A DNA stretch of 64,000 nucleotides from Tubulanus polymorphus (taxonomy: Eukaryota; Nemertea; Palaeonemertea; Tubulaniformes; Tubulanidae), in assembly GCF_964204645.1 (NCBI RefSeq), contig NC_134032.1, positions 13,386,275-13,450,274 on the forward strand, given 5' to 3'. Both the position numbers and the translations under genes were made by a program. How positions within the stretch are numbered: the first letter of the stretch is position 1; each line of letters opens with the position of its first letter. The notes beneath the pieces were generated by a model. The model saw only the letters and a list, made by a program, of their open reading frames with translations, was not told the origin of the DNA and did no database searches. Positions 21,001-41,865 of this stretch are shown here, in pieces.

Positions 21001-24000
21001 GTCAGAGATGGTGGAATAACATTGATCTGACGATATGCATTTCTTGTCTAAACACAAAACTGATTTCAATCTTGAACTCGATCTGAAGAATATTCTCATT
21101 GATAACTGTGACCAAGTGATGACTTTCACTTCTGACACTAAAAATACACTTTATAACTGAAAACATGGCTTCTTCACACTACGATCCATTGTGAACTGAC
21201 AATTGAACCAATGATAAAGTACTGTGTAACTTTCTTGTTCAAACGCTATAACCTGACTTTAACCGTAAAGATAAGAACAATGCATCGAAAATTGGCTTAC
21301 CTCTTGTAGTTTGTGTGTTTTCGGAAGTTTTGGAAAGACTGGACTGTGAATATTCAAATATCTACAAAAAATAATATCACAGCAATTCAATAAATTTCTG
21401 ATAGAATTATACACCAGGCCCTACGACAAACATTGTACATAGTGTAGTCTATTTTAGAATTAAAATTCCAATATTCAAACTTACAGTACATGTACATGAA
21501 AATTTGAAAGAGCTTGGGCATTTTGCTCAAAACGAAGTAGTTTCAAGCATACGTTTGAAAGATTTTCCATTTTGAAAGAGTTTTTAAGGAATCAAGGCAT
21601 TGTAGGGACCCTAACAGGGGTCAGTTGCTGAAACGTTGCTAAAAAGTAACCACCGTTCGAATATACCCAGTGTTTTCAATAAGAAATTAACAAGTCAGGT
21701 CCCTTTGAAAAACTGGAGGGTCCCATAATATGTCACAGTCCCTGAAACGAAAGCTGGTTTGAAAAAACAGGCGGGTCCTTTACAAACGACAGACGGACCT
21801 GGGGTCTGGGACCTGGCTCTTATTGAAACCACTGATACCTAGGCACCACGGTACGGGAGGTTATTGAATATTAACATCATTTTGCGTACCGCGGTGTGTG
21901 GTTAATGAAGATACCGCGTCGCTGTCATAAGACAATGACCGGATGTTCAATTGGTTTCTACGGTTACACGCCATAACATCACGTACGACTGGACATCGGT
22001 CAATTAGTGCGATATTTAATTAAAATCAATCCCAGATCAAACTACGGTCGACCGTGTTCAAACTGAAAGGACGTAAATTGATTTCGTCTTTATTAAATGT
22101 AAACAGAATTTCGATGTATCGCGTGATAGTGTTAATACATCGCGTTAAATCCTTTTGTTCGTAAATTCATTTCGAAGTTTGCTCAAAGCTTTTCGCAGTT
22201 TGCCTAAAAGGTTAGCGAACATATAGCCACACCATTAGTCAAATTGCTATCAAAAGCATACATCTGATCGCCATATAGATTGTACAAAGTAAATTATCTC
22301 TGGGCTTCCGAGGAGGGGCTTTTTGATTGATGGGGGACACAAATTAATTAAACCAGCAGGACCCTTCGGACCCTGTTCCACAAATGTTAGTTAACAAAAT
22401 CAGTCCATTTCTGATTTTAAGATAAAAACACATTGGCCTTCATTAAGAGAAACCCACAATATTATCAATTCAATCATCTGCTAGAGGCCTATGATTTTTT
22501 TTTCTTACATTTCCAGTAGAATCTATCCACCCATCTTTGAATAAACTGTGAAGATGGGTGGAAGGATTCCACAAGAAACATAAGAAAAAAAAAACAATAG
22601 GCATAATTGGCCTAGTTGGTTATGTTGACATTGCTGTCGGTTTCTGACCAGCAGAACTATCGAACTGGCTGCATGGTTGTTAAGCCGTAGTAGTTAAATT
22701 TGACTTAAAGGTATACTTTTACAGCAGATCTTTTTTTCTAAGGAACAGAGATTTGACGCACAGTGGTTATCCAAAGAAATGCCTGAAAAAGAAACCCTAG
22801 TTTTTTGCATTTTGATAAGGTCTCGCATATCGAACAATTAACCAATGAGAATAAACAAATATTTGAAATAAAAGCAGTTGTTTTTAAAGGACGACATTCT
22901 CTGTACCCTGTATGTACAGACAAGACCTAAAGGCAATAACTCATAACTACTATTAGGCTAATACATAGTTCTGCTCTATAGCCAAATAGGCTACATGTAA
23001 ATTTCTTTAATTTAGACCTACTAGACTGTGACACAAGAACTGAAATAAAATGACCAAGAAATGCTGGCACTGGTGGTCATTAGCCTACTTGGGAAATTCA
23101 CCACTCCTGACCATTAACACACTCAACTCATTAGCGCCTATGTTCAGTTGCTGGGGACACCTTGAGCGTAGTAACGGATCACCTCCACCAGGAAGGCTCT
23201 GGTACTACACAAACTCCGGGATGTCCCTTTTAGGCTTTTAGACCCATCCCAACTCATCATCCAACATGGATTATTTGAGGATCCTACTCCTATAGTCTAA
23301 ATACGGCCGCTATGTCCTCCGTAGACCTATAGTCAGTAACCTGTCTGTGGTTTAGTCTCACAATCAGATATTTTCACAAACAGCCCCATCTGATTTAGGC
23401 CTAGGCCTATAGGTTAGGTAACGAAGCTTAACTTAACTACCCTAGACCCACCCCTCAGCTCAGGGCCGATCACAAGGCAGGATGGGTTTAAAAGCCATCA
23501 CACTGAATCATTACAGGCACAGCATCCAAAAGGCCCTAGCAATAGCAGCAACTAAATAGGGCCAAATTTAAGCCAATTTCAAACCGACTGTATACATTGA
23601 CTATGAATGAGTTGAGAAGAAATTGATAGGCCTATGTTTTGATATAGGACTACCACCTAGTCATAGAGCTAATAAAAAGACACAATATAGCCTATTATGG
23701 GTAAAAGTGCAGATCCGCACCTCTCTGCGTAAACGGTTCAATCAATTACTTAAATATCATTGTTTAAGATTCAAAATGTCATCAGCAATTCAGTACATTG
23801 TCAATGGCTAATTTTAAGATATCTTCACTAGAGAGAGTAGCCTATAGAGATTTTAGCCTGGATTCTGTCATTCAGAGATTGCGTCAATCACGAGAGGTGC
23901 GGATCTGCACTTTTACCCCTATTATGCTTGATATTTCATTTTTCTTTTAACAAAAAAGAAACAACTTACGCTAATTTTTTAAATCGTTCTAAGCCGGCGG

Positions 24001-24301
24001 CCACATACTGTTTATCGGGCTGTAACGTGCCGATATCCTGGGGCACCCTGTGTCCGCCCACGGGCGTGTACAGTTTGCGAACGCATCCGAACGACGGGTT
24101 GAGAGTTTTGGTCAGTTGCGACAGAAAACAGTCGTAAGTCCTCACTTGTTTCGGGTTCAGAACGAACCGGCGCGCCTGAAAGAAACTATCGCCGTTCCTG
24201 TAAATCCAAACGCTTTTCACGCCGTCGCCGTTTTTTTGCGGCTGGTGTTCGGTTGAAATACCCGCCGCCGCGTGAGGACCGCCACCAGCATCTGTGGCCA
24301 T
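9..24301 (-). CDS. DCDC2: DCDC2-like doublecortin-domain gene, 16 exons, 3' end off the window
   Basis: Minus-strand exons in transcript order: 24301-23970, 21361-21301, 17885-17865, 16883-16830, 10801-10725, 9487-9356, 8794-8645, 7575-7450, 6774-6650, 6041-5923, 5407-4673, 2927-2862, 2406-2086, 1345-1307, 899-822, 77-9. All junctions are AG/GT and phases agree throughout, giving 835 codons without a stop. DCX domain 1 is residues 28-110 (VWIYRNGD ... AAGLERFKKLA). DCX domain 2 is about 179-260 (FVYTNGD ... CYVAVGKEQFRPLPY). The linker motif PVKHSRI and the downstream motif TQVELPIDQ match DCDC2 as known from vertebrates. DCDC2 binds microtubules and works in primary cilia. Vertebrate DCDC2 is about 476 aa, so this protein has a much longer tail, with two coding repeats and two IQ motifs. 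No stop is reached, so the C-terminus lies left of the window. DCDC2B or DCDC2C relatives are the alternatives. Confidence 0.85.
78..821. other. DCDC2-like intron, no gene seen
   Basis: It holds a stretch at 600-690 (GGGCCAAATTTGACC ... CCAATTTGGCCCAGG) that recurs in diverged form at 18430-18500, so it is a dispersed repeat. A fragment with CAACTGGACCCAGTTCCA near 385 belongs to the foldback family described at 6165-6275. Confidence 0.5.
822..899 (-). CDS. DCDC2: DCDC2-like exon encoding an IQ motif
   Basis: 78 nt, phase 0 to 0, acceptor ATTACGAAG, donor GTACAT. It encodes 26 residues with ATKIQSVQRGRKARKDIEK, a perfect IQxxxRGxxxR motif. IQ motifs bind calmodulin or light chains. The exon is a module homologous to the one at 9-77. 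Confidence 0.7.
1307..1345 (-). CDS. DCDC2: DCDC2-like 39-nt acidic exon
   Basis: Thirteen codons (GEKPADDESDEAK), phase 0 to 0, acceptor CATTTTCAG, donor GTACGA. Short, but splice sites and composition fit the exons on either side. Confidence 0.65.
1690..2035. repeat. 44-bp minisatellite in a DCDC2-like intron
   Basis: Repeats of the pattern TGTAACATACAGTTGTCAGC followed by ATGCAGGTGTTAGGAAGTTA, near-perfect at 1820-2000 and decayed at 1690-1820. It lies just beyond the donor of the exon at 2086-2406. Confidence 0.85.
2086..2406 (-). CDS. DCDC2: DCDC2-like Pro/Ser/Arg-rich exon with 14-residue repeats
   Basis: 321 nt, phase 0 to 0, acceptor TTCACGTAG, donor GTATTG. It starts with a proline-rich run (SPSPPPKSQTPP) and contains about three repeats of SASRQDRQATPAER (42-bp unit, about 2155-2290). 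The exon ends EEDE. If the donor were not used, translation would stop four codons later, so this could be an alternative C-terminus. Confidence 0.75.
2862..2927 (-). CDS. DCDC2: DCDC2-like acidic exon
   Basis: 66 nt, phase 0 to 0, acceptor TTCTTGTAG, donor GTCAGT. It encodes 22 residues (DEEEIQDVPADKEL...), compositionally like the acidic tail of DCDC2. Confidence 0.75.
2928..4672. other. DCDC2-like intron with GGT/GGA microsatellite and MITEs
   Basis: A (GGTGGA)n trinucleotide tract lies at about 3778-3828. From 4095 to 4580 there are two related foldback elements with ends like GGCAGGTTTCGATTGGTCTC and an inverted partner near 4290-4325 and 4540-4580. Related pieces occur at 9145-9260 and 11248-11340. 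No exon was identified in this 1.7 kb. Confidence 0.55.
4673..5407 (-). CDS. DCDC2: DCDC2-like large acidic exon with 8-residue tandem repeats
   Basis: 735 nt, phase 0 to 0. It starts DDKRLNGPRDD after a weak acceptor (GAATAAAAG) and ends at donor GTATCG after TAWK. It is rich in Asp and carries seven repeats of the pattern AADGFDQS (24-bp unit, 5040-5200). The part after the repeats is low in predicted order and unlike any domain I know. Confidence 0.75.
5923..6041 (-). CDS. DCDC2: DCDC2-like exon: acidic linker with TQVELPIDQ
   Basis: 119 nt, acceptor CGTTTCAG, donor GTACGA. It encodes DSGVYKAKTRDE then an acidic run with NDTQVELPIDQ. Vertebrate DCDC2 has a closely similar TQVEVPVDQ after a comparable GIFKA segment, so homology extends past the DCX domains. 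This supports DCDC2 over other DCX proteins. Confidence 0.85.
6165..6275. mobile_element. Foldback MITE with CCCAGTTCCACAGTT termini
   Basis: Inverted ends CCGGTTCCACAGTTGTGAGT and ACAGAACTGTGGAACTGGGT flank about 70 bp. A second, better copy is at 18178-18287. The ends recur in decayed pieces (about 375-440, 15965-16085) and in the minisatellites at 11030-11245 and 19030-19440. Confidence 0.7.
6365..6503. mobile_element. Foldback MITE with CTGGGTCCAGTTTCA termini
   Basis: GGGATCCAGTTTCACAA at the left and ATGAAACTGGACCCAGG at the right are inverted copies. A related copy lies at about 60465-60595 inside an EXOC3 intron. No coding capacity. Confidence 0.6.
6650..6774 (-). CDS. DCDC2: DCDC2-like exon: Lys/Thr-rich linker
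   Basis: 125 nt, acceptor CCTCTCAAAG, donor GTATGT. It encodes KKTNRTSKKKAA, a run of five Thr from (ACG/ACA) codons, then a Lys/Glu-rich part. The ACG run is a coding trinucleotide repeat likely to vary in length. Confidence 0.8.
7450..7575 (-). CDS. DCDC2: DCDC2-like exon: basic Ser-rich linker
   Basis: 126 nt, acceptor TTTGTCTAG, donor GTACGT. It encodes a Lys/Arg-rich stretch (MLQQKRMRKNR) followed by Gly/Ser/Thr. Basic tails after DCX domains are common, and here one probably adds electrostatic microtubule affinity (inference). Confidence 0.82.
7640..8385. mobile_element. Nested foldback elements in a DCDC2-like intron
   Basis: Outer element: GTGGCCTAGCTCAGTTATAG at the left, and inverted halves around AGTTGAACTAAAACAT (8046) and ATGTTTTAGTTCAACT (8336). 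It shares ACTCCATGATTTGAA and GGCCTAGCTC with the large foldback at 56688-57190. Inner element: ATAATTCAAAATCCATAGAAG at 7686 is repeated inverted near 7965-7985, with a different core, so one element appears to have inserted in the other. Confidence 0.6.
8645..8794 (-). CDS. DCDC2: DCDC2-like exon: second DCX domain, second half
   Basis: 150 nt, acceptor TTTTTTCGCAG, donor GTACGT. It encodes GLYTVDGELV ... GECYVAVGKEQFRPLPY, the end of DCX domain 2, then a Pro-containing linker. Confidence 0.92.
9356..9487 (-). CDS. DCDC2: DCDC2-like exon: second DCX domain, first half
   Basis: 132 nt, acceptor TATTTTCAG, donor GTACGT. It encodes FVYTNGDTLRHASRILLQ and ends SLRTGAIH, the ubiquitin-like DCX fold start with the YxNGD loop. 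The acceptor and first exon bases resemble the unit of the adjoining 22-bp minisatellite (9481-10296). Confidence 0.92.
9481..10296. repeat. 22-bp minisatellite, about 37 copies, abutting a splice acceptor
   Basis: The unit AGTATACACTAGAAATACAT+AG is repeated about 37 times with few changes. Read on the minus strand the unit is ...ATGTATTTCTAGTGTATACT, which closely resembles the true acceptor and exon start (TATTTTCAG followed by TGTATATACT) at 9488/9487. At least one interior unit (near 9576) keeps TTTTCAG exactly. The array appears to have grown from the acceptor itself. Confidence 0.95.
10297..10553. mobile_element. hAT-like MITE inserted in the 22-bp minisatellite
   Basis: 257 bp, with ends CAGAGGCGATTCAG and (inverted) CAGGGGCGGATCCAG, typical of hAT-type non-autonomous elements. 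One more minisatellite unit (CAGTATACACTAAAAAT) continues on the far side, so the element entered the array. A possible short target duplication (AGTAT) is hard to judge in repeat DNA. Confidence 0.65.
10725..10801 (-). CDS. DCDC2: DCDC2-like exon: start of second DCX domain
   Basis: 77 nt, acceptor TTTTTCAG, donor GTAAGT. It encodes ITPVKHSRIQASGRIRK and ends ESCTI plus two bases. This corresponds to KPVIHSRI...EPCTI in vertebrate DCDC2, immediately before the second DCX core. Confidence 0.88.
11030..11245. repeat. About 45-bp minisatellite built from MITE ends (forward)
   Basis: About four to five units of GACTCTGGACCCAGTTCCAC plus AGTTGTGTRGAATTAATTT. The core is the terminus of the MITE at 6165-6275. 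The array at 19030-19440 carries the same unit on the opposite strand. Confidence 0.8.
11394..11646. mobile_element. Foldback element with GGGCCCGATCTAAG ends
   Basis: GGGCCCGATCTAAGAAGTG at the left and CAAGTGCTTAGATCGGACCC at the right are inverted copies. CTTGCCCGGGGGCAAG motifs lie inside. No open frame of note. Confidence 0.6.
12063..12236. mobile_element. Foldback element, 80-bp arms
   Basis: GTCCAAAAATGTTTCCACGA at 12080 pairs with CAAGGATACATTTTTGGAC at about 12195-12213, and the arms continue through GAGCTAGTAGTTTATTACAC to a loop near TAGTCATTATGCCGG. MITE-like, in a DCDC2-like intron. Confidence 0.65.
12790..13460. repeat. About 145-bp satellite-like array, five copies
   Basis: Five units each containing GAGACAGGCGTGGCTTCTAA, ATATTGAGTTCCCCAAAATA and AATAAACACAGGAGTCCGG. 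The fifth is partial and the units differ by small indels. Confidence 0.85.
14050..14735. repeat. About 130-bp degenerate tandem repeat
   Basis: Units built from ATCATACCACTGGTCATCGC, CCATTCTTACCATCCCATA and CCATAACAAGTGGTCACCCC, about five copies with indels. Confidence 0.75.
15430..15930. repeat. About 85-bp tandem repeat, six copies
   Basis: Units of GGGATTTGAATCTGATGGCA, TCATGAGACTCTGTCACAGT and ACAAACCCCTACCCTAGTAG. The long frames open on both strands here are produced by the repeat length and are not genes. Confidence 0.85.
16830..16883 (-). CDS. DCDC2: DCDC2-like exon in the inter-DCX linker
   Basis: 54 nt, phase 0 to 0, acceptor TTTTCAG, donor GTGCGT. It encodes a polar peptide of 18 residues beginning TDFDASVLTDG. 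It has no clear vertebrate counterpart, so it is placed by splice sites and frame. It could also be a cassette exon. Confidence 0.6.
16985..17165. mobile_element. Foldback element around 17.0-17.2 kb
   Basis: AATAAGTAACGAGACGAG at 16997 pairs with CTCGTCTCGTTACTTATT at about 17132-17151, and GCACGAGCTTTCGTTTCTAA pairs with TTAGAAGCGAAAGCTCGTGC. The core holds GAAGCTTCATCGGGTGAATG. MITE-like. Confidence 0.65.
17455..17550. repeat. About 27-bp tandem repeat, three copies
   Basis: TTTGCAGAAGGTGCTTTAAG followed by ACAGAGG, three copies with single-base changes. Confidence 0.8.
17865..17885 (-). CDS. DCDC2: Possible 21-nt DCDC2-like microexon
   Basis: Between acceptor CTGCTTTCAG and donor GTAATA there are seven codons (INDVPDE) in phase 0 on both sides, so inclusion or skipping leaves the frame intact. 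Support is only splice sites and phase, because this linker is not conserved. Confidence 0.4.
18178..18287. mobile_element. Foldback MITE, better copy of the CCCAGTTCCACAG family
   Basis: GGATCCAGTTCCACAGTTCT at the left and ACAACTGCGGTTGTGGGTCC at the right are inverted. GAGTTAGAGTGAACTCTGAG lies in the left part. Same family as 6165-6275. Confidence 0.7.
18750..18800. repeat. 25-bp perfect tandem duplication
   Basis: CCGCGTGACAAGCGTGACAC plus GGGAG occurs twice in a row without change. A G-tract of about 13 bases lies nearby at 18588-18602. Confidence 0.85.
19030..19440. repeat. About 40-bp minisatellite built from MITE ends (reverse)
   Basis: About nine diverged units of CACACAACTGTGGAACTGGG plus TCCAGAGTCAAATTAAAC. 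It is the reverse complement of the array at 11030-11245, in another intron-scale part of the same gene. Confidence 0.8.
19441..21300. other. DCDC2-like intron, no gene seen
   Basis: AT-rich, unstructured sequence. The short open frames (for example at 19680-19874 and 20401-20595) lack homology, splice sites and codon bias. Confidence 0.5.
21301..21361 (-). CDS. DCDC2: DCDC2-like exon 2 (inter-DCX linker)
   Basis: 61 nt, acceptor TTTTTTGTAG, donor GTAAGC. The first base completes the split alanine codon from exon 1, giving FKKLAYLNIH, which matches FKKLNYL in vertebrate DCDC2. It ends in phase 0. Confidence 0.85.
21668..21834. mobile_element. MITE with CAGTGTTTTCAATAAGA ends (copy 1)
   Basis: The same element is found inverted at 58952-59090. 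Ends CAGTGTTTTCAATAAGA and TCTTATTGAAACCACTG. The interior includes GTCCCATAATATGTCACAG and CCTGAAACGAAAGCTGGTTT in both copies. Confidence 0.75.
22495..22594. other. About 100-nt imperfect hairpin, pre-miRNA-like
   Basis: Arms TTTTTTTTTCTTA and TAAGAAAAAAAAA close a stem that continues through GAATC/GATTC to CCACCCATCTT/AAGATGGGTGG with a loop of about 12 nt (TGAATAAACTG). The stem has a few mismatches and bulges. It lies in intron 1 of the DCDC2-like gene. It could be a miRNA precursor or a short foldback transposon. Confidence 0.4.
23699..23919. mobile_element. 221-bp MITE next to exon 1 donor
   Basis: Terminal inverted repeats GGTAAAAGTGCAGATCCGCA and its complement at 23890-23917, flanked by TATTAT on both sides (23693-23698 and 23920-23925), a likely target duplication. 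It ends about 45 bp from the splice donor of exon 1. Confidence 0.75.
23970..24301 (-). CDS. DCDC2: DCDC2-like exon 1: start codon and first DCX domain
   Basis: ATG is at 24301-24299. The exon encodes 110 codons plus two bases and ends at donor GTAAGT (23969-23964). A Gly/Ala-rich leader of about 28 residues precedes the whole first DCX domain (KSVWIYRNGD, YTPVGGHRV, YVAAGLERFKKL). Codons are GC-rich compared with the flanks. No in-frame ATG lies further upstream before a stop. Confidence 0.92.
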
Positions 24302-24822
24302 ATCGCTTTCGACAAAAGAGCAGAGTGTATCGCTAAAAATTATCCAACAAGAATCGCTGTCTTCGCTTTATCCATATATTCACACTATCTCATAATACTC
24401 AGTGTCAGTCCAGTAGTGTCACAACTAGTTGTTGAACTTTCATCTCAAACCTACACGCGATGCATTCTGGGTGAGATTTATTGTTTACATAGGTGTCAGC
24501 GCTACCTCGTCGCCTAGCAACACGACGCCGAAAACACGTGTAGTTACACATTCACTGTGATGCGCCAGGTGGCAGCACTGTACGGGGCTGAATTGATTGC
24601 GTGTTATTTTCCATACAGCATAATGTACAATGATTCAATGTCAAAGAGAAATGTCAAATTGATCGAAAAACTCAAGTCAACCCTCGTAACACAATGCGTG
24701 CTTACTTAATTGCAAATGAAATAATTATTTGATAAGCAAAAGAAGTTTTTTTATAATACCAAAAAAATAATTTGTTATGGTCCTGATCGAATGTAAAATG
24801 CAATTTGACTCACACCAGGTTG
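24302..24822. promoter_or_regulatory. 5' flank and likely promoter of the DCDC2-like gene
   Basis: Unique-looking sequence between the ATG and the start of the duplicated block. It is richer in CG dinucleotides around 24500-24600 than the flanks. No clear TATA box was seen at a sensible distance. The X-box is the only motif I can support. Confidence 0.4.
24509..24521. promoter_or_regulatory. RFX X-box upstream of the DCDC2-like gene
   Basis: GTCGCCTAGCAAC is a perfect match to the palindromic RFX consensus GTNRCC N0-3 RGYAAC. It lies 208 bp upstream of the start codon of the minus-strand DCDC2-like gene, the usual distance for X-boxes in cilium genes. Function is inferred from sequence and from the known role of DCDC2 in cilia. 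Confidence 0.7.
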
Positions 24823-25159
24823 AAAGCCTGTTTGGTCGACGGATGGCTATAGTGACAACCAAAAAGACTGCTGATTTCATAATACTCTTCGGCAGCTAAA
24901 CACTTGCTTCTAACCGGTCAACTAAGTGTCTGTGTGTCCGGCTTAAGCTGTATTACCATTGATGCATAATCACATCATCATGTTTTCCGCACATCCTCGT
25001 CTCTGGACAATATTGGTGGAAATATTGGGTTGAAAAAAGAGGTGGATTGCAAGATAAAAAAAAATCACTGACTGGTCAACTCAAAAAGTTCAGAGTAGCC
25101 ATTTAACTAAACAAATAAAATAAAGAATTTCAAACAAACATATTTATTATCATACAATA

Positions 25160-26850
25160 AAAATACAAAATGCCAGGTATGTGCTCGAGGAATTATAACG
25201 TAAGTTCCTCAAACACGTGGACTGTATTTCAAAAACAGTCCAACCATGGACGCATAAACTATAAACTAGAGTTTATACATCCATGGTCCAACCATAGACT
25301 CTAAACGGAAATGTCTATGGGCCACAACCATGGGCTCTAAACTGTAAGAGTCCATGGCTCCCCGCACTAAAACCAGAGGTAAACCTGGCCAATTACCCTG
25401 GAAAGCGTAAGATTTAATGTTGAATCAATCTGATTTACATTTTTACTCTTAAAAGTTGACCCGGCCAGCCGCCTATCTACCTTATAGGTATTGCTTTAAA
25501 ATCATGATCAAGCTAACTATAACAACTGATTACAAATATCATTGTTATTTACAAAATGACAGCTGGCCGATCAGGAAAACAAGGTATCATTTTTAGCCTT
25601 ATAATGAGCTATCCAAAAAATAAGATTACCGTACTAGCCTTTAACATCACAATTGCTACTGCAAGGTATTTCAAGGTTTTTATTCACCAAAAACATTTCG
25701 ACTACAACTGATTCAGAAAATTTGAATCAATAGGATAATGATAATATAACACAAAGAATTGTAAACTCTGATCCATAAAACACCGACAATTGGGACCAGT
25801 CTGAATGTCTAAGACTATTAATTTGACAATTCATGAAGTCACGAGGCATAAGTGACATTTGGCTATTTCATGAAATATGAAGCATTTTATCATATCAACT
25901 CTTCAAATGACAAAAGATACTCTGTTTAAGTATCATCAATCATCAAAGAACTACATAACATATCTCCAACATATAAACATTAAAGCTCCATAAATCCACA
26001 AATTCGCTCTCAAATAATCAATCTCTAATTTCATTTCATTAAACATCATTCTTAAAAGAAAACCGAAATTTCGCAAACTTTGCTTTGTATTTGAGGAATT
26101 GTAAGTTACTCGTTAACACATGAGTGAACTGTATTCGAAAAACAGTTCAACATAAAAGCATTAAAACTAATGAAACCTACAGATTCAATCTTGAAAGCTT
26201 GAGATTAACTAATCAATCTTCATTTTTTCATTTCCATTAACATTATTTTACAAACTAGAGTTTTAAGTAAGATAACTAGAGTTTTGCCAAACTTGCCTGA
26301 GGTTTTCAAACATTTTCGATGTTATTTTCTCAATATTGTTACGTTTAATGCAAAGTATTTTGAAGGTTTTTTAATTAAGATATATTGAGTATCATCGTAT
26401 AGATATTTCATCTATCCATATATCTAGGTAAAATACAAATAACTGATCGCTGAGATATCTACAATTAAACTGAATTCGATAACTTTTTCGAGATCGGAAA
26501 TGCATCGTGCGCAGATTTGAATCGGGCCCCATATATTGTAAAACCGACAATAGCTATCAAAACATAGCTAGGACAATTTACTAATCAACACTGTTTATAT
26601 ATCCTCATTTATAGTAAAAAATGCTCCTCTATATTTGATAGGACCTCAGTTTGATAGTTGCTATAAACCTAACTAAACAGTCGAAAAATTTTAAGATGAA
26701 TAATGAACACATATGAGTCGTTTTATTCTCATGACAAAACCTTGCTAAATGACAGGTATTTACTCGAGGAATTATCATCTAAGTACCTTGTTAACAAATG
26801 GACTGTATTTTAATAACAGTTCGACATAAAAACATTTAAACAAGAGACAA
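25160..26850. repeat. Three diverged copies of a block inside unit A
   Basis: CTCGAGGAATTATAACGTAAG with GTGGACTGTATTTCAAAAACA (about 25170), TTGAGGAATTGTAAGTTACT with GTGAACTGTATTCGAAAAAC (about 26090), and CTCGAGGAATTATCATCTAAG with TGGACTGTATTTTAATAACA (about 26755) are versions of the same 80-100 bp block. The same three recur in unit B at about 39660, 40580 and 41250. No gene found in them. Confidence 0.7.
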
Positions 26851-27215
26851 AACCTACAAAATCCCACTTCCGCTGACCCTCGTCTTAAGAACTTAAGATT
26901 TTCAAACATTATCAGTTCACTCATTTAATACTACGTTATTTCAGGGAAAACATGACAATAATTTTACCATCGATAACTAATCACTTTTATAGCTGTTTAA
27001 CATTCTTTCTAAAAAAGAGTAATATGTATCTCCCAGATATTAGCCCTAAAACAATCAACAGTAACAGCAGTGACAGGGTGTGCTATAGGTAAAAGGGCGG
27101 GTGATCTTTCATCAGTTATTTGAAGCATTCTATCGAATCAGTTATTTTTTTAGTGTGTTTGATTTAGTTAAGGTTTATGGTTATTTGTTTTGTTTATTAC
27201 TAACTGTCCGATAGA

Positions 27216-27365
27216 ATGCTTAAAACAACAACAGAAATGATCTCAAGAGGTTGGGAAACTCTAGAGAAGGTTGTTCCATGTGAAGAAGAACCTTTAATGA
27301 TTAGATTAAGTTATTTAAAAAAAATTCCTGATGATGAAGGCCCTATAATTATAGAAGTTAACTAA
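27216..27365 (+). CDS. Short unrecognised ORF in unit A
   Basis: An ATG frame of 49 codons (MLKTTTEMISRGWETLEK ... IIIEVN, stop). The unit B copy (41716-41865) keeps the frame, and two of the three differences are synonymous. In B a donor-like GTAAAC replaces GTTAAC near the end, so it could be an exon. I do not recognise the protein. Low confidence that it is a gene. Confidence 0.3.
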   Translation: MLKTTTEMISRGWETLEKVVPCEEEPLMIRLSYLKKIPDDEGPIIIEVN

Positions 27366-28369
27366 TTGTTTATTCGTTTTTGTCTATTTTTTTATTAGTT
27401 ATGATTTGTTTTTTTTTAATATTTATTTTGTTATGTATTTTTTATTCATTGTTTTTTTTATTTATTTACTTTTTAATTATGTTCTATGTATTTTGTACTA
27501 TTTTTTACTATTTACATCATCAGGAATTTCTTACCGGTGGAAATATGGGCTCACTTAAAGAAAAGTGCTACAAATTCACTGCTGCACCTAAATAATCGTT
27601 TATCATTAAACACCCCGATTTGGAGTTAAGCGATCATTGAAAGCCACTCAACCTTATGATATGGATGACGATGAAAGAAGTTAAAACAGCTATAAACAGA
27701 CTTAAAACGATCAAAATTACTGCTGGCCATTATTATTTATTCCTTTATATCACATTATTCCTAGCTATACCTCTCTTATACCTCTGTAGATACAATGTAC
27801 TAAGATACAAGTTTTCATATACCTAGCTATGATCATCCACATGGGAGCTCAATGTGAAAATCGAGATATTCCACTCATTAGTCAAATCGCTTTCATGGGC
27901 CTTCGAAAAATTTATGGTATCAAAAAATACATCAACACTTTGGTATATAAACTTATCATTTGTACACAGAACACTGCCAAACATTATAGTCTATGTGATG
28001 ATATGATGACTACGTGATGATATTCAAGGGCGTAGCCAGTCTATACTGAAGGCCCACTTTTTGGCCAAGGAATCATTTTCAAAACATCTTTATTCAAAGC
28101 CCATAAACTTGCTGGGCGAGTTTAGGAGTCCAAACTAATCAGGTATCAACTTCCTTTATTATGTTTAAAAGTTGCAACCGTTTAACTGACTACCCCTCTC
28201 CCTTTTGAACATTTAGGCTATGCAAATCATTTTCACTCTCAGGAAATATAAAATGAATCACGGTTTCTAAGAGACCAAACAATGTCATTATTACAAATCA
28301 TGCAAAGCTATGTTTAACTAAGTATGAAGATTATCTGAACTATCCTGTTGATATCATATCTCAATTTAG

Positions 28370-28576
28370 GTGCATTTCAATGGACCTACGTCGAACCGTG
28401 ACGCTGAATGTGATCAATACCATCAATTAATGGAGTGTAGATTTCAGACTCCGAGAAGGAACTTTCTGTCACATTACAAAGGACATGACACATCTGTTTA
28501 CAAATCGAAAACAGTTTGCCTAATCAATATGAAAGAATTAGGATGCCATTTTATTAAAATATTCAAATATGAATAG
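28370..28576 (+). CDS. Probable coding exon of an unrecognised gene, unit A
   Basis: A frame opens right after an acceptor-like CTCAATTTAG and reads VHFNGPTSNRDAECDQYHQL ... for 68 codons. Before the position where unit B gains a stop there are five differences between the units: four are synonymous third-position changes and one is Thr/Ser. That pattern suggests past selection on this protein. There is no ATG at the start, so it is probably an internal or terminal exon. The upstream exon is unknown, with candidates at 27216-27365 and 27524-27629. Confidence 0.45.
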   Translation: MHFNGPTSNRDAECDQYHQLMECRFQTPRRNFLSHYKGHDTSVYKSKTVCLINMKELGCHFIKIFKYE

Positions 28577-28984
28577 TTCCTTCTCAGGCCCAGAGCCCTA
28601 ATTTACTAACTTCAATTTTCACTAATCAACATTAAAACTATTTCTTTATTTCCGGCTCTTCAAATAGACAGTGAATTTTAAGACGCATTTTGAAACCTAT
28701 GTTACACATCAGACTGGTTTGTAAAAAGGTAATACACAAAATAAATCAATACTTTACATATTCTACTGACGTTGCTGCTCCTGAATAAGTGTTTATAAGA
28801 TACGCATTGTCTGTGCTGCTCCTGAATAACTGTTCACAATATATATACATTGTCTCTGCTGCTCCTGATTAATTGTTTATATATAACACACGCATTGTCT
28901 CTGCTCCACCTGTAGAAGAAATCTGTCATTGGGCGATAAACCGCTGCTGGCTGAATTTCTCATCTGGACTTCTAGGCCTAAGCA

Positions 28985-31900
28985 GTTGAATTCAAGTTGG
29001 ACTCTTCTGTGGTAGTTGATGATTTCAATTCAAGTTGGAATCTTCTGTTGTCTGTTTTAATCAATAGATTCTAGATGGTTAGTTGACCTAAGTATGGGCT
29101 TTTTCTTATAGATGTGATCTAGCTAAAATGCACAAAAGGAGATATGCTGTATTCACACAATATTTCATATAGCATTAACAATAATAAATTCCATGTAAAT
29201 CAATTTACCTTTCAAGATAACTGGGTTTAGTGTCAGCTAGGAGTTCTAAGTTGGTTGATTAGTAAAATTCAAGGTGCATTCTTCTGTTGTCTGTTCTAAT
29301 CAGTAGGTTCTAGATGGTTAGTTGATCTTAGTATGGGCTTTTTCTTATAGATGTGATTTAGCTGAAATGCACAAAAGCAGACATGCTGTATTCACACAAT
29401 ATTTCATATAGCATTAATGATAATAGATTCCATGTGAATAAACTTACCTTTCAAGATTGCTGAGTTTAGTATCGGCTAGGATCGTCTAAGTCGGTTCATG
29501 AGTTAAATTCGTTCTGTGGTAGTTGATGATGATTTTAATTCAAGTTGGAATATTCTGTTGGCTATTCGAATCAGTACATTTTTCACTAGTTAATAATAGG
29601 CTGAGCGTTTTCTTATAGATGTAATTTAGCTGAAATGAATGAAAGAAGATATCCTGTAATTATACAATATCTTACAATATACACAATTTTTCATATAGCA
29701 TTAACCATAACAAATTCCATGTAAATCAATTTACCTTTCAAGATAACTGGATTTAGTGTTGGCTAGGAGTTCTAAGTTAGTTGATTAGTAAAATTCAAGG
29801 TGCATTCTTCTGTTGTCTGTTCTAATCAGTAGATTCTAGATGGTTAGTTGATCTTAGTATGGGCTTTTTCTAATAGATGTGATTTAGCTGAAATGCACAA
29901 AAGGAGATATCCTGTATTCACACAATATTCCATATAGCATTAATGATAATAGATTCCATGTGAATCAACTTACCTTTCAAGATAACTGGGTTTAGCGTCG
30001 GCTAGGTGTTCTTAGTTGGTTGATTAGTAAAATTCAAGGTGCATTCTTCTGTAGTCTGTTCTAATCAGTAGATTCTAGATGGTTAGTTGATCTTAGTATG
30101 GGCTTTTTCTTATAGATGTGATTTGTGATAACTGGGTTTAGTGTCGGCTAGGATTGTCTAAGTCTGTTCATGATTTAAATTCGTTGCACTCTTCTGTGGT
30201 AGTTGATGAGTTCAATTCGAGTTAGAATCTTCCGTTGGCTTTTCTAATCAGTAGATTTTTGAGTAGTTAATCTTAGGATGGCCTATTTCTATAGATGAGA
30301 TTTAACTGAAATGATTAAAAGAAAATATCCTGTATTCACATAATTCTTTATATAGCATTGATCATAATTTCCATGTCAATCAATTTACCTTTAACGATTG
30401 CTGGCTTCAGTATTGGCTTGGATCCTCGGTGTGTTCGGACATTAGTTACGAACCCCAACTGCCTAATTGTAGAAGTAGCATTAGTTCATCACTGTTTAAG
30501 ACTAATGACGGCCGGATATATATCAGATCGGCAATGTGGACCGGTGCATAGATTTTGGTAATTAAATGCCTCTTATGTGCGCTGTTCTCTAATTGGCAGA
30601 TTTCAAACGAGTTGTTGACCTCAAGTGCCGCAGTTTCATATAGATATTATTTAGCTGAAATGAGTAAACAAAGATATCCTGTAAATACAAATATTTCATT
30701 CAGAATTAATCGTAACTAGTGGAAAGCCCATGGAAACGTAAACGTAGAACTTCCGGCTTATTAATGCATTGCACCATACGTCCAGTAACGATGGAGCAAT
30801 CGGTACGACAATTCAGTATTATATTAACAAGATAATTTCACGTATATCAAGTTACCTTTCATGATTGCTGGGTTCATTATCAATGAGGATCTCCTAAGTT
30901 GGTTGGTTGTAGTTGAGATCAATTCAAATTCGCCCCTTCTGTGCATGGTTCTCTAATCGGCAGATTTCAAATGAGTTGTTGATCTCAAGCGCCGCAGTTT
31001 CATATAGATATTATTTAGCTGAAATTAGTTTAAAAAAATATCCTGTAAATACAAATATTTCATTCAGAATTAATCGTAACTAGTGGAAAGCCCGTGGAAA
31101 CCACGGGAGATTTTTAAACGAAGAACTTCCGACTTATTAATTCGTTGCACCATACATAAATGGCCCACCACATAAATGCCATAAATTCAATGGAAACCAT
31201 GCCCAAGCGATGAAAGACGTCGAGATCTACAACTGGGTGATTTCAGGGCAATACATCCAGTAACGACGGAGCAGAAAAAAGTTTTCACTCGGTACCGTCG
31301 GTTGGTCGGGTTACGGCAAACGGACCATTATTTTGGGTTGGCCTTATTATTCATAATATTTCCATGTAAATCAACTTACCTTTCAAGATTGTCGAGTTTA
31401 GTATCAGCTAGGATTGTCTAAGTCGGTTCATGATTTAAATTCGTTGGACTCTTCTGTGGTAGTTGATGAGTTCAATTCGAGTTAGAATCTTCCGTTGGCT
31501 TTTCTAATCAGTAGATTATTGAGTAGTTATTAGGATGGGCTTTTTCTTATAGATGAGATTTAACTGAAATGATTAAGAGAAAATATCCTGTATTCACATA
31601 ATTCTTTATATAGCATTGATCACAATTTCCATGTATATCAACTTACCTTTAACGATTGCTGGCTTCAGTATTGGCTTGGATCCTGGGTGTGTTCGGACAT
31701 TAGTTTCGAACCCCAACTGACTAATTATTTGTTGTAGTAGTAGCATTAGTTCATCACTGTTTAAGACTAATGACGGCCGGATATATATCAGATCAGCAAT
31801 GTGGACCGGTGCATAGATTTTGGTAATTAAATGCCTCTTATGTGCGCTGTTCTCTAATCGGCAGAGTTTAAAGGAGTTGTTGATCTCAAGCGCGGCTGGT

Positions 31901-33725
31901 TCATAGATAGGATAAAGCTGAAAGAAAGATATCGTGTAAATACAAATATTTCATTCAGAATTAATCGTAACTAGTGGAAAGCTCGTGGACACCACGGGTG
32001 ATTTTAATCGAAGAACTTCCAACTTATTATTTCATTGCATGTTAATTGAGTATTTGGGCATTTTAAAGTGGCCTAATTTATGTGGTGTGATCAGCTGTGC
32101 CCATATAGAGATATTACAGGATCTCAGGACTCACTTGACCGTCTTCCCATGGAGGCCCAAGGTTATAGAACTATAGATAGAAACAAATATGTAAAGTACC
32201 GATATGATCATTTCATAATGTGTGAATTTCGTGAACCGGCAGCTGGGTCACAAAGGCAGCAGTAGCTCGTACTGTATCAACAGTGACAACAGTGGCTGTC
32301 TCTAGTCAGTGGCTATGCCAGCTGACCCATGCACCCTCTGTGAACAGTAGGAGAGACTACAAAAATTTGGAAAGTGGCCCACCACATAAATTCCAAAATA
32401 ATTTTTAATGGAAACCATGCCCAAGCGATAAAAGACGTCGAGATCTACCGCCGGGCAAATTTTCAGGGCAATACATCCAGTAATGACGGAGCAGTCAGTA
32501 CAACAATTCGGTATTATTATATAAGATAATTTCATGTATATCAACTTACCTTTTATTATCGGCAGATTTTAAACGAGCTGTTGATCTCATGAGCGGCAGT
32601 TTCATGTAGAAAGGATTTAGCTGAAAATGAGTAAACAAAGATATCCTGTAAATACAGATATTTCATACAGAATTCAGGCCCCTTCTGTGCGCTGGACTCT
32701 AATCGGCAGATTTTAAACGAGTTGTTGATCTCATGAGCGGCAGTTTCATATAGAAAGGATTTAGCTGAAAATGAGTAAACAAAGATATCCTGTAAATACA
32801 GATATTTCATTCAGAATTCAGGCCCCTTCTGTGCGCTGTACTCTAATCGGCAGATTTTAGATGAGTTGTTGACCTCAAGCGCTCGATTTACTTTGTATGA
32901 ATTTCCTGACCCAGCAGCCGGGTCACATCGTACTGTATCAACTGTGACAATAGTGGCTGTCTCAAGTCAGTGGCTATGCCAGCAGACCCATGCGCCCTCT
33001 GTTTACAGTAGGAGAGACTACAAAAATTTGGCAAATGTTCCAGTTGGTCGATTTTGGAAGAGTTGTTGATCTCAAGCTGGGTTTTTTCTTATAGTTGCAA
33101 TTTAGCTGCTATGATTAAAAGAAGATAGGCTGTAATGACAAATTATTTCATTTAGAATTCATCATTATCATTTCCATAAAATATCAACTTACATTTCAAG
33201 TTTGCTGGGTTCTGTATCAGTTAAAATGTTCTATGTTCATTGATGCATTTGATTTAAGCTTGAATTGTTGTGTGGGCTGTTCTTATCGGTAGATTCATGA
33301 TTTGTTGTTGATCTCAAGCTGGGCAGTTTGATGAAGATAGGATTCAGCTGAAGAGTAAACAAAGATATCATGTAATCACAAAACATTTCATTGAGAATGA
33401 ATTGAAATAATTCCATCCATACTAAGTTACCTTTTATGATTGCTGGATTCATTATCGGCGTGGATCATCTATGTTGGTTGGTTGATTCTAGTTGGCTGTG
33501 CACTGTTCCAGTTGGTCGATTTTGGACGAGTGTTTGATCTCAAGCTGGGTTTTTTCTTATAGTTGAAATTTAGCTGCAATGATTAAAAGAAGATATCCTG
33601 TAATGACAAAGTATTTCATTTAGAATTTATCGCAATAATTTCAACTATATTAAGTTACCTTTTATGATTCCCGGGTTCATTATCGACAAGGGTCTCCTAA
33701 GTTGGTAGTCTAATTTTACATATCT
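28985..33725 (-). repeat. Array of about 12 exon-like modules, unit A
   Basis: The best-conserved modules repeat about every 240-270 bp. On the minus strand each has an acceptor-like ...GCATTTCAG, an exon-like part of about 150 nt starting CTAAATCACATCTATAAG and ending CCCAGTTATCTTGAAAG, then a donor GTAAGTTGATT and an intron-like spacer of about 90 bp. Donor-bearing modules are seen near 29215, 29450, 29735, 29970, 30390, 30855, 31375, 31645, 32545, 33190, 33430 and 33655. Most modules have stops in all frames, so they are noncoding exons, decayed coding exons, or a tandem repeat that merely looks spliced. Confidence 0.7.
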
Positions 33726-33768
33726 TTTGTTGTTTTTTTCTAGTCCGAAAGTTTACAATGTTTGAATT

Positions 33769-34140
33769 TTGTCTAATTTAACATTTCTTTGCTTTTCTTT
33801 TCATGTAAATAGTCCGAAAGTTTACAAGGTTAAGATTATTTTGTCTAAGTTTTACTTTTTACTTTTGCTTTTCCGTAAAGTTTTTTTTGTAAAGTTTTTT
33901 CGAAATCGGAAATCGAAGTACAGATATAGTTGCGTGATCGGCGATCGATTTTACATAAATTTTCTTTTCTTGAAATCCAAACACATAACGGGAAATTCGG
34001 TTCCGGTGCCTTCAATTAATCTTCCAACCAGTCTGAACCGGCAAGCGTCTGATTGGGGACTGCCTATTTTAATACATCGAGATTTGGAATATCTATATTA
34101 CAAGGTTGAAGATCATTTTGTACATTTTATGACTAGTTGA
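33769..34140 (+). CDS. Unrecognised ORF or terminal exon, unit A
   Basis: The frame is open for 123 codons. The last 68 (VIGDRFYIN ... VEDHFVHFMTS) are shared with unit B and look protein-like, whereas the first part is Phe/Leu-rich and low in complexity. An acceptor-like TCATGTAAATAG lies at about 33810. In the shared 68 codons I count three differences, two of them synonymous. No family recognised. Confidence 0.3.
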   Translation: MSNLTFLCFSFHVNSPKVYKVKIILSKFYFLLLLFRKVFFVKFFRNRKSKYRYSCVIGDRFYINFLFLKSKHITGNSVPVPSINLPTSLNRQASDWGLPILIHRDLEYLYYKVEDHFVHFMTS

Positions 34141-35252
34141 TCATATAGTTCAAACCTGCTAGTAATATTGCCCCTATATACATTTCGATTCCCAGCTAAA
34201 CTATGTTCGTATTATTAAATTAACTTCATCGCCAATTAATAAACTTTAAGAGATATGTATTCTTCCCACAGACATCTGTGCCCAGTGAATGGTATTCTAA
34301 TCCATTTCAGTAATTCTAAATATTGCTGGTAAAATATATACAATGATATACTTATGATTATGATAATATAACTAGCTTAACGAACCCAGAATTCCCCAAA
34401 ACCTAACTGATTCAACAGATCCCACACACATGTGGCCCAGTTAGACGCAGACAACATTGCACGATACAGTCGTCTCATCCACTGCGCTATTTTTAATAAA
34501 CTTAAATTTGTTATATTGAATTAATTCTAACTAATTTTCTGATATCTAAGTGATCCATTAATTAGTAATCATACTAGCCACAATTAATTGTCAGTCGAAC
34601 AATATTTATATGGAGCCTGAAAACCTACACGAGTAGAATTTCAGATGTGGTGAATTCATCACTATTTGAATTCATCAGAACTTAAGATAAAATCCCATTT
34701 TTAGTGGTAAATTAAAAATTCCCTTACCCGAATTGCAATATAATCTTTATTTCCCTGTTACAGTACACTGTGTATAAGGATCAAAAGACCTTGTTATGAC
34801 CGGACCTCCCTGGTGCGGTGCAAGAAATGATGCTGGAATATAGTTTGAAGGAGAGGGGTTAGTAAAAGAGAGCTATTAGCAAGAGGAATAAGACCTAAGT
34901 TCAGGATATCCTGTCAGAATAAGGCTCTCAATCTGACATACACAGTGAAATTGAAATATTCCCCCTCCCAAATTCAGGAATGTATTTGTGCAAGTACAGA
35001 TTTGTTTTATCTCCCTTCGATCGGAAGTAAATCTGCATTAAATGATTTTGGCAATATGTTTCAAAACTAATACAGCTGTATGAAGACACAATAGGTTCAC
35101 TTAGATACAGATGAATAAGTAATGTGCTTAGATACACATTGTATCAGCTACATTTTTGATGTCTATGTACTTGAATTAAAAATAATTTCACATCATTGAA
35201 TTTACCTTAATTGTAGATATCTAAGTAATACCTTAATGAGTAATTCACCTTA

Positions 35253-35640
35253 GTTATATCCTTACTCATCCTCCAAGTTTTTTGTCCCGCGTGTTGACTA
35301 GGTAATGATATTGTTGGAACGTCCAATGGTGCCATCGGACTGAGTCCCAAAGTCGGATTATGGATGTTGGTATCACCAGACTTCCCACCATCGGAGTTTG
35401 ACTTCTGGCTAGCGAAATGACAAGATGAAGAGAGCATATTATATATTAAGTCAAAATGTTTGTCAGACAGAGCCTGACCACTGTGGTTTGAGAAAGCTTT
35501 AATTATCTCATAACCATCCCTATCATTAATAGTATTAACTATTTTTGTGCCACAGATTTATGCCAGCTCCGTTCGTGTCTGGGTTAGGTACATATACAGC
35601 CAAACCATGTACCTCTTCCCCACACAATAAGTGTTTTTTG
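35253..35640 (-). pseudogene. Unrecognised protein-like minus-strand segment with a frame break, unit A
   Basis: One frame (about 35640-35546) reads KKHLLCGEEVHGLAVYVPNP and continues, after a shift near 35550, as KIVNTINDRDGYEIIKAFSN and then to about 35253, where a donor-like GTGAAT follows DITK. Unit B (about 48916-49310) has the same shift plus a Trp to stop change, so it was already broken or is spliced here. The family is not recognised. Confidence 0.35.
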
Positions 35641-35790
35641 AGAACACCTGTATTTTGGAATTAGTAAAAATCAACCCCTGATATACCACTATTGCCCCAA
35701 GTTTGCTTAAAATGAGCTGAAATTAAATAGTACATAATCATTAATTAACAAGACAAAATTTGCAACCATATCTAACTTTGATAGTGGATG

Positions 35791-35955
35791 ATGAAAAAGA
35801 TGAAAGGCCAGGATGAGGGGTCTGAATCAGAAATCGAAGATACAGAGTTTACGATGTATTTGAAGTACACAAAAGATGCTCGAGATTACAGAGTTCACGA
35901 ATACAAAATAGACGATATCATCCGCTGCGACAAGAAAAATTGGGAAAGATTTTGA
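35791..35955 (+). CDS. Short acidic ORF, unit A
   Basis: An ATG frame of 54 codons (MMKKMKGQDEGSESEIEDTE ... IRCDKKNWERF). The unit B copy (49451-49615) is open too, with two amino-acid changes near the end. Unrecognised, and it may be part of the foldback element that follows. Confidence 0.25.
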   Translation: MKKMKGQDEGSESEIEDTEFTMYLKYTKDARDYRVHEYKIDDIIRCDKKNWERF

Positions 35956-36134
35956 TGGAAGGGGAAAGAACCTTGGATGAAAAATAAAATTTACACAGTT
36001 TCACGGCTTAAATCGAAGTACAACCATATAGACGCTGGTAATACATAGTTTTAACGGCTTTACATCATATTTGATCTAACCGGAGAGAAAGAAGTCAGCA
36101 CAGAACTTCTGGCTGATAACAGCAAAGTCCGGTT

Positions 36135-36753
36135 CTCAGGGTTCCAACTGGCAGCGGCAGAGTCGGAGTTCTCTAACGTGGCCTCGTCCCAGCTAGTGGC
36201 CGGGTGCCGATGACACTGGTGTTACTACGGAGGACCCGCAATCAGAGTAAGACAGGAAGCGACAAGCAACTTCGGCTTCGGGGGATATCCGATCTTCAAG
36301 CATCAACACCAAAAGACAACCGGCACCCAGATGAGAGAGAAAAACTGGGTGAACGGGGAGCCCATCAGCAAGATGCCAATGGGTAGCCTTAGGCGAAGAA
36401 ACCAGCCGATTCAGACCAGAATGGACCTAACTGGGGACCCAATTGAGAATTGAGCACACCACCTAAGACAACCGACACCCAGATGACGAGGAAAAACTGG
36501 GTGAACGGGGAGCCCATCAGCAAGATGCCAATGGGTAGCCTTAGGCAATGAACCAGCAGATTCACACTAGAATGGACCAAACTGGGGACCTAAAGATCCA
36601 ACAGCCCCCTCAGTCGAAGATTGCTACCGCCCCCATCTTATTCTGATCGCAGGTCCCCCGTAGTAACATCCGCATCACCAGCACTCCGCACTAGCTGGTG
36701 CGAGGCCACGTTAGAGAACTCCGACTCTGCCGCTGCCAGTTGAAACCCTGAGA
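36135..36753. mobile_element. Foldback element with about 118-bp inverted arms, unit A
   Basis: The left arm (36135-36253, CTCAGGGTTCCAACTGGCAG...) is repeated inverted at 36637-36753. Between them a block of about 55 bp with ACTGGGTGAACGGGGAGCCC occurs twice (about 36345 and 36495). GC-rich compared with its surroundings. Non-autonomous transposon-like. Open frames across it are a by-product of composition. Confidence 0.7.
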
Positions 36754-36889
36754 TTGAGAGGGCAGGGGCGAATGAAATGAAAGAAAAAAAAATGAAAAAA
36801 CAAAAATAATATAGAAAAATAATGAAAAAAATGAGATATAAAATATACCACACATTCATACGACACATATAAGCTCCATTCACTCCTCT

Positions 36890-36985
36890 TGCACACACCA
36901 CGCACACAACTCCATCCACCGCACACACAACTCCATCCACCGCACACATAACTCCATCCACCGCATACATAACTCCATCCACCGC
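36890..36985. repeat. About 20-bp minisatellite, four units, unit A
   Basis: ACTCCATCCACCGCACACAC, with small changes, occurs four times. In unit B (about 50560-50626) it occurs three times. It opens several overlapping minus-strand frames that I treat as artefacts. Confidence 0.8.
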
Positions 36986-37159
36986 CACCGGCGCCACGCC
37001 ACCACTCCGAAAAACACCGCGCCACAAGATCGCCAGGAAACACAGCAAAAGCTGACGAGCTCGAGAGAACGCCATCTGATCGTGTCAAAGACTAGTACTC
37101 GATTGAACGATTGTGGAGAAATTCCGCACTCTACAGTATCAAATGCAAACATAAATGTA

Positions 37160-39300
37160 GATATTTTATTGAACGGAACTGATTTTCAGTCCACGTCAGT
37201 TGAAAACCCGTTTTGATCGATGTTTTAATGTTTATTTTAAATACAAATTAGATTTAAGACCTAACTAATATCTAATTGTGAGGGTAGGATAAAAGGATCG
37301 CGGATAAATTTCCTGCTCGCATGCCACAGCTCTGTCAAATCTCAATCGTCTAGTGCTGCCCCTAAATACTGTGGCGAATACATAAACTAATCGATTAATA
37401 TACTCTACCCGTATTTGTACATGAGGCCTACCGTTTACTTATCTTGCTTTACGTCGTTCGTGTCTTGTGGTTTCCCAAGACCATAAATCATATTGGATCC
37501 ATTTTCAGGGGTAGAGCTAGATAATTAAATGGTAATTGTCCGAACAGTAGATTGTTCTATTTTTTCTCCACGTCAAAGTTAATAGTTTAAAAATTCAAAA
37601 TACAAATTATGTTCAAATTCAGATTTCACAAACAACAACTCGTTGGCCCACTGAAAGATAGCAGCGAAACAATCTTCGGGTAATAAATGTTAGAAAGAAT
37701 TAGGTTATCCTCTCAGGGCCTGGTTAATTGCGTTTCCGTAGCGTATGGAAAAAGTAAAGCAAAGGAGGTAGGCCTGACCATGTAGGCTTACATTATCCAA
37801 CTACAAAAGCCTTGACGCAACATAAACAAAATCGAAAAGGAAAATATCAAAAATGCAGGATATCACATGCTTGAAGTAGCTTGGGCTTGAAGCTAATTAC
37901 ACCACGAGGGCATATCTAGGCAAACATATCCGAATTTCAATTGCTAGACTTGCTAGAGTGTGGTCGAATGAGAGAGTATAGCATCTCAGGGAATGTCTAG
38001 AAGTTCAAATCACACTGCGTAGATTTGTTCACGTCAAAATTTCATATCAAACTCAAACAGTACCATAAGAATGAGCACCTGAATTCTACATCAAGGACAG
38101 GGGGCCATTTTATCAGAATCTGGGAAGAAATCCGTTGAGGAAGCGATGGATAAAGGCAAATGCATCTGATTTAAAACAAAACATGTTTTGAACATTAGTT
38201 TCCATAATATTGAAAGTATGCCTAGTTACAATATTTCTCATTAAAAAACCAAAACCCACCCTGAAAGATATATTCCAAGGAGGTTGGTTTGCAATTTAGG
38301 TGGTAAACTATTGGAGATTTGGCTGTGGAAGGTATGAATCACATTATGTTTCATTCAGTAGCCTATGTCGTAATACATAGCGATTGTGCACTCGGATTTC
38401 ACGTCACAGTCGAATGATCGTGGGTGGGTATCTCAGGGAATTCACTATACGCCAGATCAATTGAGTCTATTCACGCTCGTAACACAAACTAAGTCCCGTA
38501 CTAACGTACGGTCAGCCCTATGTTTATGGGCCCTGGTTGTTAACTATTAAGACGATTTTTGATGACTGCGGTCTTTCGTTTTAGGTTGTTTGGTCATTGT
38601 TCTGAAGGTTGACCAAATTTCATCTGGGTTTTCATGCAGACTTTTCGAATTTGTCTGCCCAGGCTTTCTTAGCGTTTTGAATACTTAATTGGTGGTTTCC
38701 TCAGCAGAAGGCAAGGAGATGGAGTTTCTTTGTTTTTGTGAATTGTGCTATTGATGAATGGATTTACGAGTTTATCATGGACGTTAGAGTCTGATACATT
38801 GTCCTTGTTACCGATTCCCTACAACCGTTTTTTGTTTGTAGAACGACGGCTATAGGTACTAGACTATCATGGACGTAAACTAGTTTATACGTCCATATGA
38901 GTTTATCAAATGTTCCACTGCCGGGTTGAATACGCGCCTCTGTACCCAGCTCAACGATATCGAATTCCAGAGTCCCACGTCATTGCGGTCCCAGATCCGA
39001 CGCGAGTGGATTGAGTGCATGATTGAATAATAAAACCCCGGCAATAGACAGATTTTAATTCATAAAAATTCTTATTCAATTGAGTGGAGACATATTAGGC
39101 TTTTTAGATTACTTGCAGTGTGCATCCTCTGGAAATTCTGCCAATAACTTCATTGCGCTTACCACTCATAATTTGAAAAAACCCAAATTTCATTCTTTGA
39201 TTTTGATACTGGATTAAACGGTACATCAGAATGTAAATACAGGAGTCCATATTAAGAATTTCGTTTCTTGTTTTCAGTCTTAAAATGATATTATCTGTTT
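37160..39300. other. End of unit A, no gene seen
   Basis: Unique-looking AT-rich sequence, collinear with 50800-52950. Short hairpins such as ATGGACGTAAACTAGTTTATACGTCCAT near 38868 are present in both units. Splice-site-like sequences occur but no convincing exon. Confidence 0.45.
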
Positions 39301-41715: not shown

Positions 41716-41865
41716 ATGCTTAAGACAACAACAGAAATGATCATAAGAGGTTGGGAAACTCTAGAGAAGGTTGTTCCATGTGAAGAAGAACCTTTAATGA
41801 TTAGATTAAGTTATTTAAAAAAAATTCCTGATGATGAAGGCCCTATAATTATAGAAGTAAACTAA
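41716..41865 (+). CDS. Short unrecognised ORF in unit B (copy of 27216-27365)
   Basis: Same 49-codon frame as in unit A, with one amino-acid change (MISRG to MIIRG). An inverted pair AAGCATTCNATCG / CGATAGAATGCTT brackets the upstream region in both units. Confidence 0.3.
   Translation: MLKTTTEMIIRGWETLEKVVPCEEEPLMIRLSYLKKIPDDEGPIIIEVN

Follow-up and report, generated by a model that had tools for sequence, protein, structure and literature searches.

The locus and its two module arrays

The window, the whole stretch of 64,000 nucleotides considered here, is C8:13386275-13450274 of a eukaryotic 268-Mb assembly. It contains two head-to-tail units of a dispersed repeat of ~14 kb (tandem dimer 24820-53127), namely unit 1 (24820-39313, ~14.5 kb), delimited by self-comparison and by copies on other chromosomes, and unit 2 (39313-53127), delimited by self-comparison, with the minus strand being the sense strand of both. 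The left end of the element is adjoined by an exon with a doublecortin (DCX) domain (23966-24367, minus strand), a gene with a Fic/DOC domain (54132-55552, plus strand) lies just past the right end, and a 22-bp tandem repeat of 37 copies occupies positions 9482-10296 of the window.

Each unit carries, on the minus strand, an array of exon-like bodies separated by short introns. For the array of unit 1 (28985-33725), the first-pass annotation of the window had proposed a tandem series of exon-like modules, each with a minus-strand acceptor and donor. Profile alignment of the modules bears this out: there are 12 donors, every one GT, and 13 acceptors, every one AG, between positions 33658 and 29123. 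The array of unit 2 (43550-47400) contains 11 donors and 12 acceptors, with the signals located between 47328 and 43664 in the profile alignment, so that across both arrays of the window GT is found at 23 of 23 donors and AG at 25 of 25 acceptors. Donors and acceptors alternate almost strictly along the arrays, the exceptions being a few doubled acceptors, one of which stems from a 144-bp duplication (32558-32877, minus strand). Among all aligned copies, the donors are mostly GTAAGT (53), GTAAAT (21) and GTAACT (20), other types being rarer.

Most of the array introns are either 83-87 or 95-105 nt long, from the first module intron of unit 1 (33574-33658, minus strand, GTAACT...GCAG) to the last one (29123-29208, minus strand, GTAAAT...TTAG), and the longer introns in the window (201, 361 and 632 nt) have other sequence inserted inside. 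Most of the exons are 142-182 nt long (about 140-180 nt in round figures), and some reach 266-332 nt where a donor and intron are absent. Near position 30120 (minus strand), two exon bodies are joined without an intron, and this is one place where splice signals are lost. The same break in the profile hits indicates that this fusion is apparently common to nearly all the copies read of family A, the family of the window element; the junction does not correspond to an exact intron loss.

The element that carries the arrays

The element ends sharply on its sense-5' side. The terminus of unit 2, at 53127, reads ...CTCAGGGCTTCCATA on the plus strand, and this terminus is common to eight loci outside the window, beyond which the flanking sequences differ, except at C11, C4 and C1:30479984. 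The element is present on at least eight other chromosomes, with copies or parts of copies on C11, C4, C3, C10, C5, C7, C9, C1 and C2; these dispersed copies with a common terminus and different flanks identify it as a mobile element. A segment of ~500 bp, denoted X, lies near the sense-5' end of unit 2 (52455-52961, minus strand) and is directly repeated at the junction of the tandem units (38807-39313, minus strand). Judging by this junction, the dimer would have arisen through exchange between these direct repeats.

A related family, B, with at least 25 copies, has a core in common with family A and is 82-84% alike to it in the searched segment; overall, the two families differ by ~17-18%. 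The number of modules differs between element copies, from 1 to ~10: modules are few in the two family B copies read, this related family carrying one to several, and other arrays with up to ~10 modules occur in the genome. The first-pass annotation did not recognize that the array forms part of a ~14-kb dispersed mobile element, that this element has related families, or that modules number in the hundreds genome-wide.

LARD-like LTR derivatives and Helitron-like elements are large and non-autonomous, and some of them contain internal tandem arrays. The present element is similar in being large, dispersed and non-coding, with internal tandem repeats and the directly repeated segment X, but is distinct in being without TG..CA long terminal repeats, a CTRR end or a recognizable parent protein. 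The direct repeats of X are without TG..CA ends, and the 5' copy lies 166 bp inside the terminus, contrary to the hallmarks of LARDs; the terminus is CCATA, with neither the CTRR 3' end nor a Rep/helicase domain of Helitrons found. A scan of part of the frames and bases, covering an A unit and most of a B element, detected no Pfam domain, transposase included. A search for a LINE reverse transcriptase ORF yielded only a relic of 38 amino acids upstream of the array (34380-34493, minus strand), which, from its resemblance, we take to be a piece of LINE ORF2; its motif recurs elsewhere at 48-71% identity, in open frames of 247-400 amino acids. Near one end of a B element (L045/L046, C2:23602500-23617499, reverse-complemented positions 1362-1661), there is a zinc-finger-like ORF that starts with MDCVFYCCGKCRGLYETEEKLENHKTNC.

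The copies on C11 (L013/L014) and C4 (L015/L016/L019) are enclosed in further sequence with ~47-bp inverted repeats (GCAAAATGTACCATG...), and the C11 copy is also flanked by a 9-bp duplication, GGTTCAGAC. It is doubtful that these repeats are the element's own ends, given that other copies terminate within them, at ...GGGCTTCCATA. A nested insertion is an equally likely source of the C11 arrangement, and the wrapping possibly represents a nested element that moved the whole.

Candidate transcription and polyadenylation signals

Alignment of the copies reveals a TATA-like sequence, TATAAATA, upstream of the array (34603-34610, minus strand), a candidate promoter. Both B copies have it, as do the aligned copies of family A other than C3, in which the region is deleted, and C5, which has TATAAATG. 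Other blocks upstream of the array are kept in most copies as well. A non-coding block at 34740-34960 (minus strand) includes windows that are 98-100% alike between families A and B, the average being 82-83%; it holds TACTAAC and a pyrimidine tract and is possibly a further 3' splice site or a regulatory element.

Downstream of the array, a candidate poly(A) signal, AATAAA (28550-28555, minus strand), belongs to a block conserved between A and B; the block, which ends with CAATAAAATGGCATCC, shows little change between the families, as expected of a poly(A) site. The exceptions are C4, with AATTAA, and C7 and C3, which are without the stretch. The predicted 3' terminal exon contains 41-43-bp tandem repeats (28773-28912, minus strand).

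Conservation of the splice signals

The conservation of the modules was assessed with an intron-centred profile of 88 modules and 236 columns, in which changes were counted on a tree; centring on the intron keeps the acceptor off the profile edge and removes the end-of-profile bias. The ten best-conserved 8-mers all overlap the donor or the acceptor, with AAAGGTAA, TTTCAGCT and their neighbours at the top, followed by TACAGGAT, perhaps the branch-point region, the pyrimidine tract and TTAATGCT. In the 88 modules, the splice GT and AG together show 1 change, whereas random pairs of dinucleotides average 11.4 (fraction 0.003). The splice GT is intact in 85 of 86 modules and the splice AG in 100 of 100, whereas other GT and AG dinucleotides of the same module are kept at 68% on average. 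The suggestion of the first-pass annotation that the splice signals are among the best-kept bases of the module is thus confirmed, and the situation it named as refutation, GT and AG changing at the same rate as the remainder of the module, clearly does not hold: no other bases of the module change as slowly as the splice signals. Change is faster in exons than in introns, with mean rates of 0.047 for the 5' part of the exon, 0.036 for its 3' part and 0.030 for the intron interior.

The same contrast is seen among recent changes. When modules are joined into groups at 91% identity, there are 0 changes in 340 cells of the four core positions, where the intron interior would lead one to expect ~6 events (P about 0.002) or, when unshared changes alone are counted, 4.6 (P about 0.01), these P values being approximate because the modules are related by descent. 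The splice sites appear to be kept by selection, past and present, which is visible as slowed change, and the sparing of GT and AG by recent changes suggests selection on single copies or else a recent series of functional source copies.

The genome was also searched with patterns, independently of any alignment. The exact donor pattern matches 679 sites and the reversed control none; with two mismatches, the numbers are 1,240 and 10, respectively. Freeing the GT in the donor pattern adds 98 sites, and, among the matches listed, nearly all are a single inherited TT subfamily that belongs to the second module place of family B; freeing a control dinucleotide adds 27 sites, with several types among the matches listed. 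When the AG of the acceptor pattern is left free, AG is found at 58 of 58 sites while other free positions nearby vary. In family B (L045-L048), the second module place has TT instead of the GT donor (TGAAAGTTAAGT), and this state is inherited in many B copies; a GT one base upstream may substitute for it.

Coding and small-RNA content

The exons have the properties of non-coding sequence. Their lengths follow no modulo 3 rule, the rates of change show no codon period, no open frame kept across the modules was found, and none of the ORFs kept across copies has a coding signature by pN/pS or codon position. Modules from two other arrays (L057 and L058) likewise contain stops and indels that are not in threes. 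A frame of 116 amino acids at ~35.2-35.6 kb was rejected as coding: it has no excess of third-position changes, and a neighbouring frame scores equally.

Small structured RNAs were sought in the introns. C and D boxes in order occur in 0 of 90 introns, the introns fold no better than shuffled sequences (z from -0.06 to -1.2), and Rfam gives no match at the gathering score, the one weak hit, to mir-785 (33159-33246), being far below it; on these results, snoRNA, miRNA or structured RNA in the introns was rejected. A search for intronless (spliced) retrocopies with two junction patterns detected none, and two hits to the retrocopy patterns, at C8:10611134 and 10611377, resemble an unspliced acceptor in which CAG has changed to AAG.

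A proposed spliced non-coding RNA gene carried by a mobile element

The best explanation of these observations, with a probability of about 0.6, appears to be that the array constitutes the multi-exon portion of a non-coding RNA gene, with a spliced and polyadenylated product, that resides on a dispersed, non-autonomous mobile element. Of the three readings that had been offered for the array, a multi-exon non-coding RNA made by exon duplication, a decayed tandem-exon gene and a satellite that began from a spliced locus, it is the first that the sequence appears to support best, with GT and AG changing slowly and the exons non-coding.

Transcription of the minus strand might start at the TATA-like sequence around 34.6 kb and would proceed through the array and end at the poly(A) signal near 28.55 kb, if the conserved hexamer is indeed used. 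Each module is a self-contained cassette of acceptor, exon and donor, so that unequal exchange or slippage could add or remove modules and shift the number of exons without breaking splicing. Non-coding exons impose no reading frame, and a self-contained cassette with frame-free exons would explain copy numbers that range from 1 to ~10 between elements. Most likely, an unspliced or mis-spliced array would block the making, stabilization, export or use of the RNA, whatever role the RNA may have, and the splice sites would be kept for this reason. The simplest answer to why the splice sites are kept while the exons drift seems to be that splicing is required regardless of the exon text.

In an extended form of this proposal, perhaps a hundred lncRNA genes borne by mobile elements make up a genome-wide family, in which the number of tandem spliced exons differs from gene to gene and the splice sites are selected in individual copies; this would be either a mobile element with a variable-exon spliced RNA product or a domesticated lncRNA family spread by a mobile element. 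We put it forward tentatively, as a possibility that we consider less likely than not.

The array could instead be a neutral minisatellite within dead copies of a mobile element, descended from a founding module of a spliced locus, with splice signals that are now unused fossils. The variation in module number between copies, the drift of the exon text, the absence of coding or RNA family matches, and the many insertions and the LINE relic in the copies all accord with this view, and the satellite reading is right to the extent that the array behaves as a variable-number tandem repeat. Fossil signals, however, should decay like the rest of the module, and GT and AG do not, even in the most recent changes, nor is AG replaced at any of the free acceptor positions, which makes neutrality unlikely. 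The undecayed splice sites, together with the lack of a codon signature, also speak against a decayed tandem-exon gene. Tandem exons are common in coding genes, and the array copies read are only a part of all, so a protein-coding gene that is decayed here and intact in unseen copies can be imagined; given that the exons at other loci also show stops and frame-breaking indels, and that neither exon length nor codon position betrays a frame, this is very improbable.

Mobile-element arrays are plausible piRNA sources, and the array might be spliced to release small RNAs from introns or exons, either snoRNA-like or as a spliced piRNA precursor of the element, a possibility with which the somewhat slower change of the intron interior and an anatomy like that of the SNORD115/116 and Bsr hosts are compatible. 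We regard it as rather improbable, in view of the introns that carry no ordered boxes, reach no Rfam gathering score and fold like shuffled sequence. Finally, the modules might be kept as exon traps, because copies that land in host introns splice out harmlessly or capture host exons. Cassettes of acceptor, exon and donor could conceivably enter host transcripts, but such trapping is not needed to explain conservation inside the array, and we give it hardly any credence.

If the array is spliced, as in the non-coding RNA gene proposed here, it would represent a case of a non-coding gene, free in its number of exons, that is disseminated by a mobile element, with hundreds of natural replicates in one genome. 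The contribution of splicing to a non-coding RNA would then be directly testable where the exon sequence hardly matters, as would the way in which tandem exon lncRNAs, such as Firre and the snoRNA hosts, may originate. Without splicing, the unusually strong conservation of GT and AG would need another cause.

Comparison with known systems

A literature search of partial coverage found no description of such an element, and comparison is with systems that have parts of its organization. Splice-site conservation is an accepted mark of lncRNAs (Nitsche et al. 2015, cited in PMC7734150). Non-coding RNAs owe part of their origin and regulation to mobile elements (e.g. PMC3636048). In such mobile-element-derived lncRNAs the element lends pieces to host lncRNAs, whereas here a complete multi-exon unit with an amplified exon seems to be carried by the element itself.

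In Firre, the RRD repeat has a unit of 156 bp (PMC7734150), and the repeat overlaps 7 of 13 exons in human and 11 of 23 in mouse (PMC4820808). The likeness, by anatomy alone, is that of a repeat unit spread across many non-coding exons, the module exon here being of similar size, ~150 nt. Firre occupies one locus, to which its local repeats are by definition confined, unlike the arrays described here, which are scattered within mobile elements; moreover, here the whole exon-intron cassette is tandem and the introns are very short. The SNORD115/116 and rat Bsr hosts consist of tandem, non-coding intron-exon units whose copy number shifts by non-allelic exchange (PMC11028025 and its reference 87). 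C/D snoRNAs reside in the introns of these hosts, in contrast to the array introns, in which none was found. Judged by anatomy, Firre is the nearest system in plan, and the SNORD115/116 and Bsr hosts are the nearest in the tandem layout of introns and exons.
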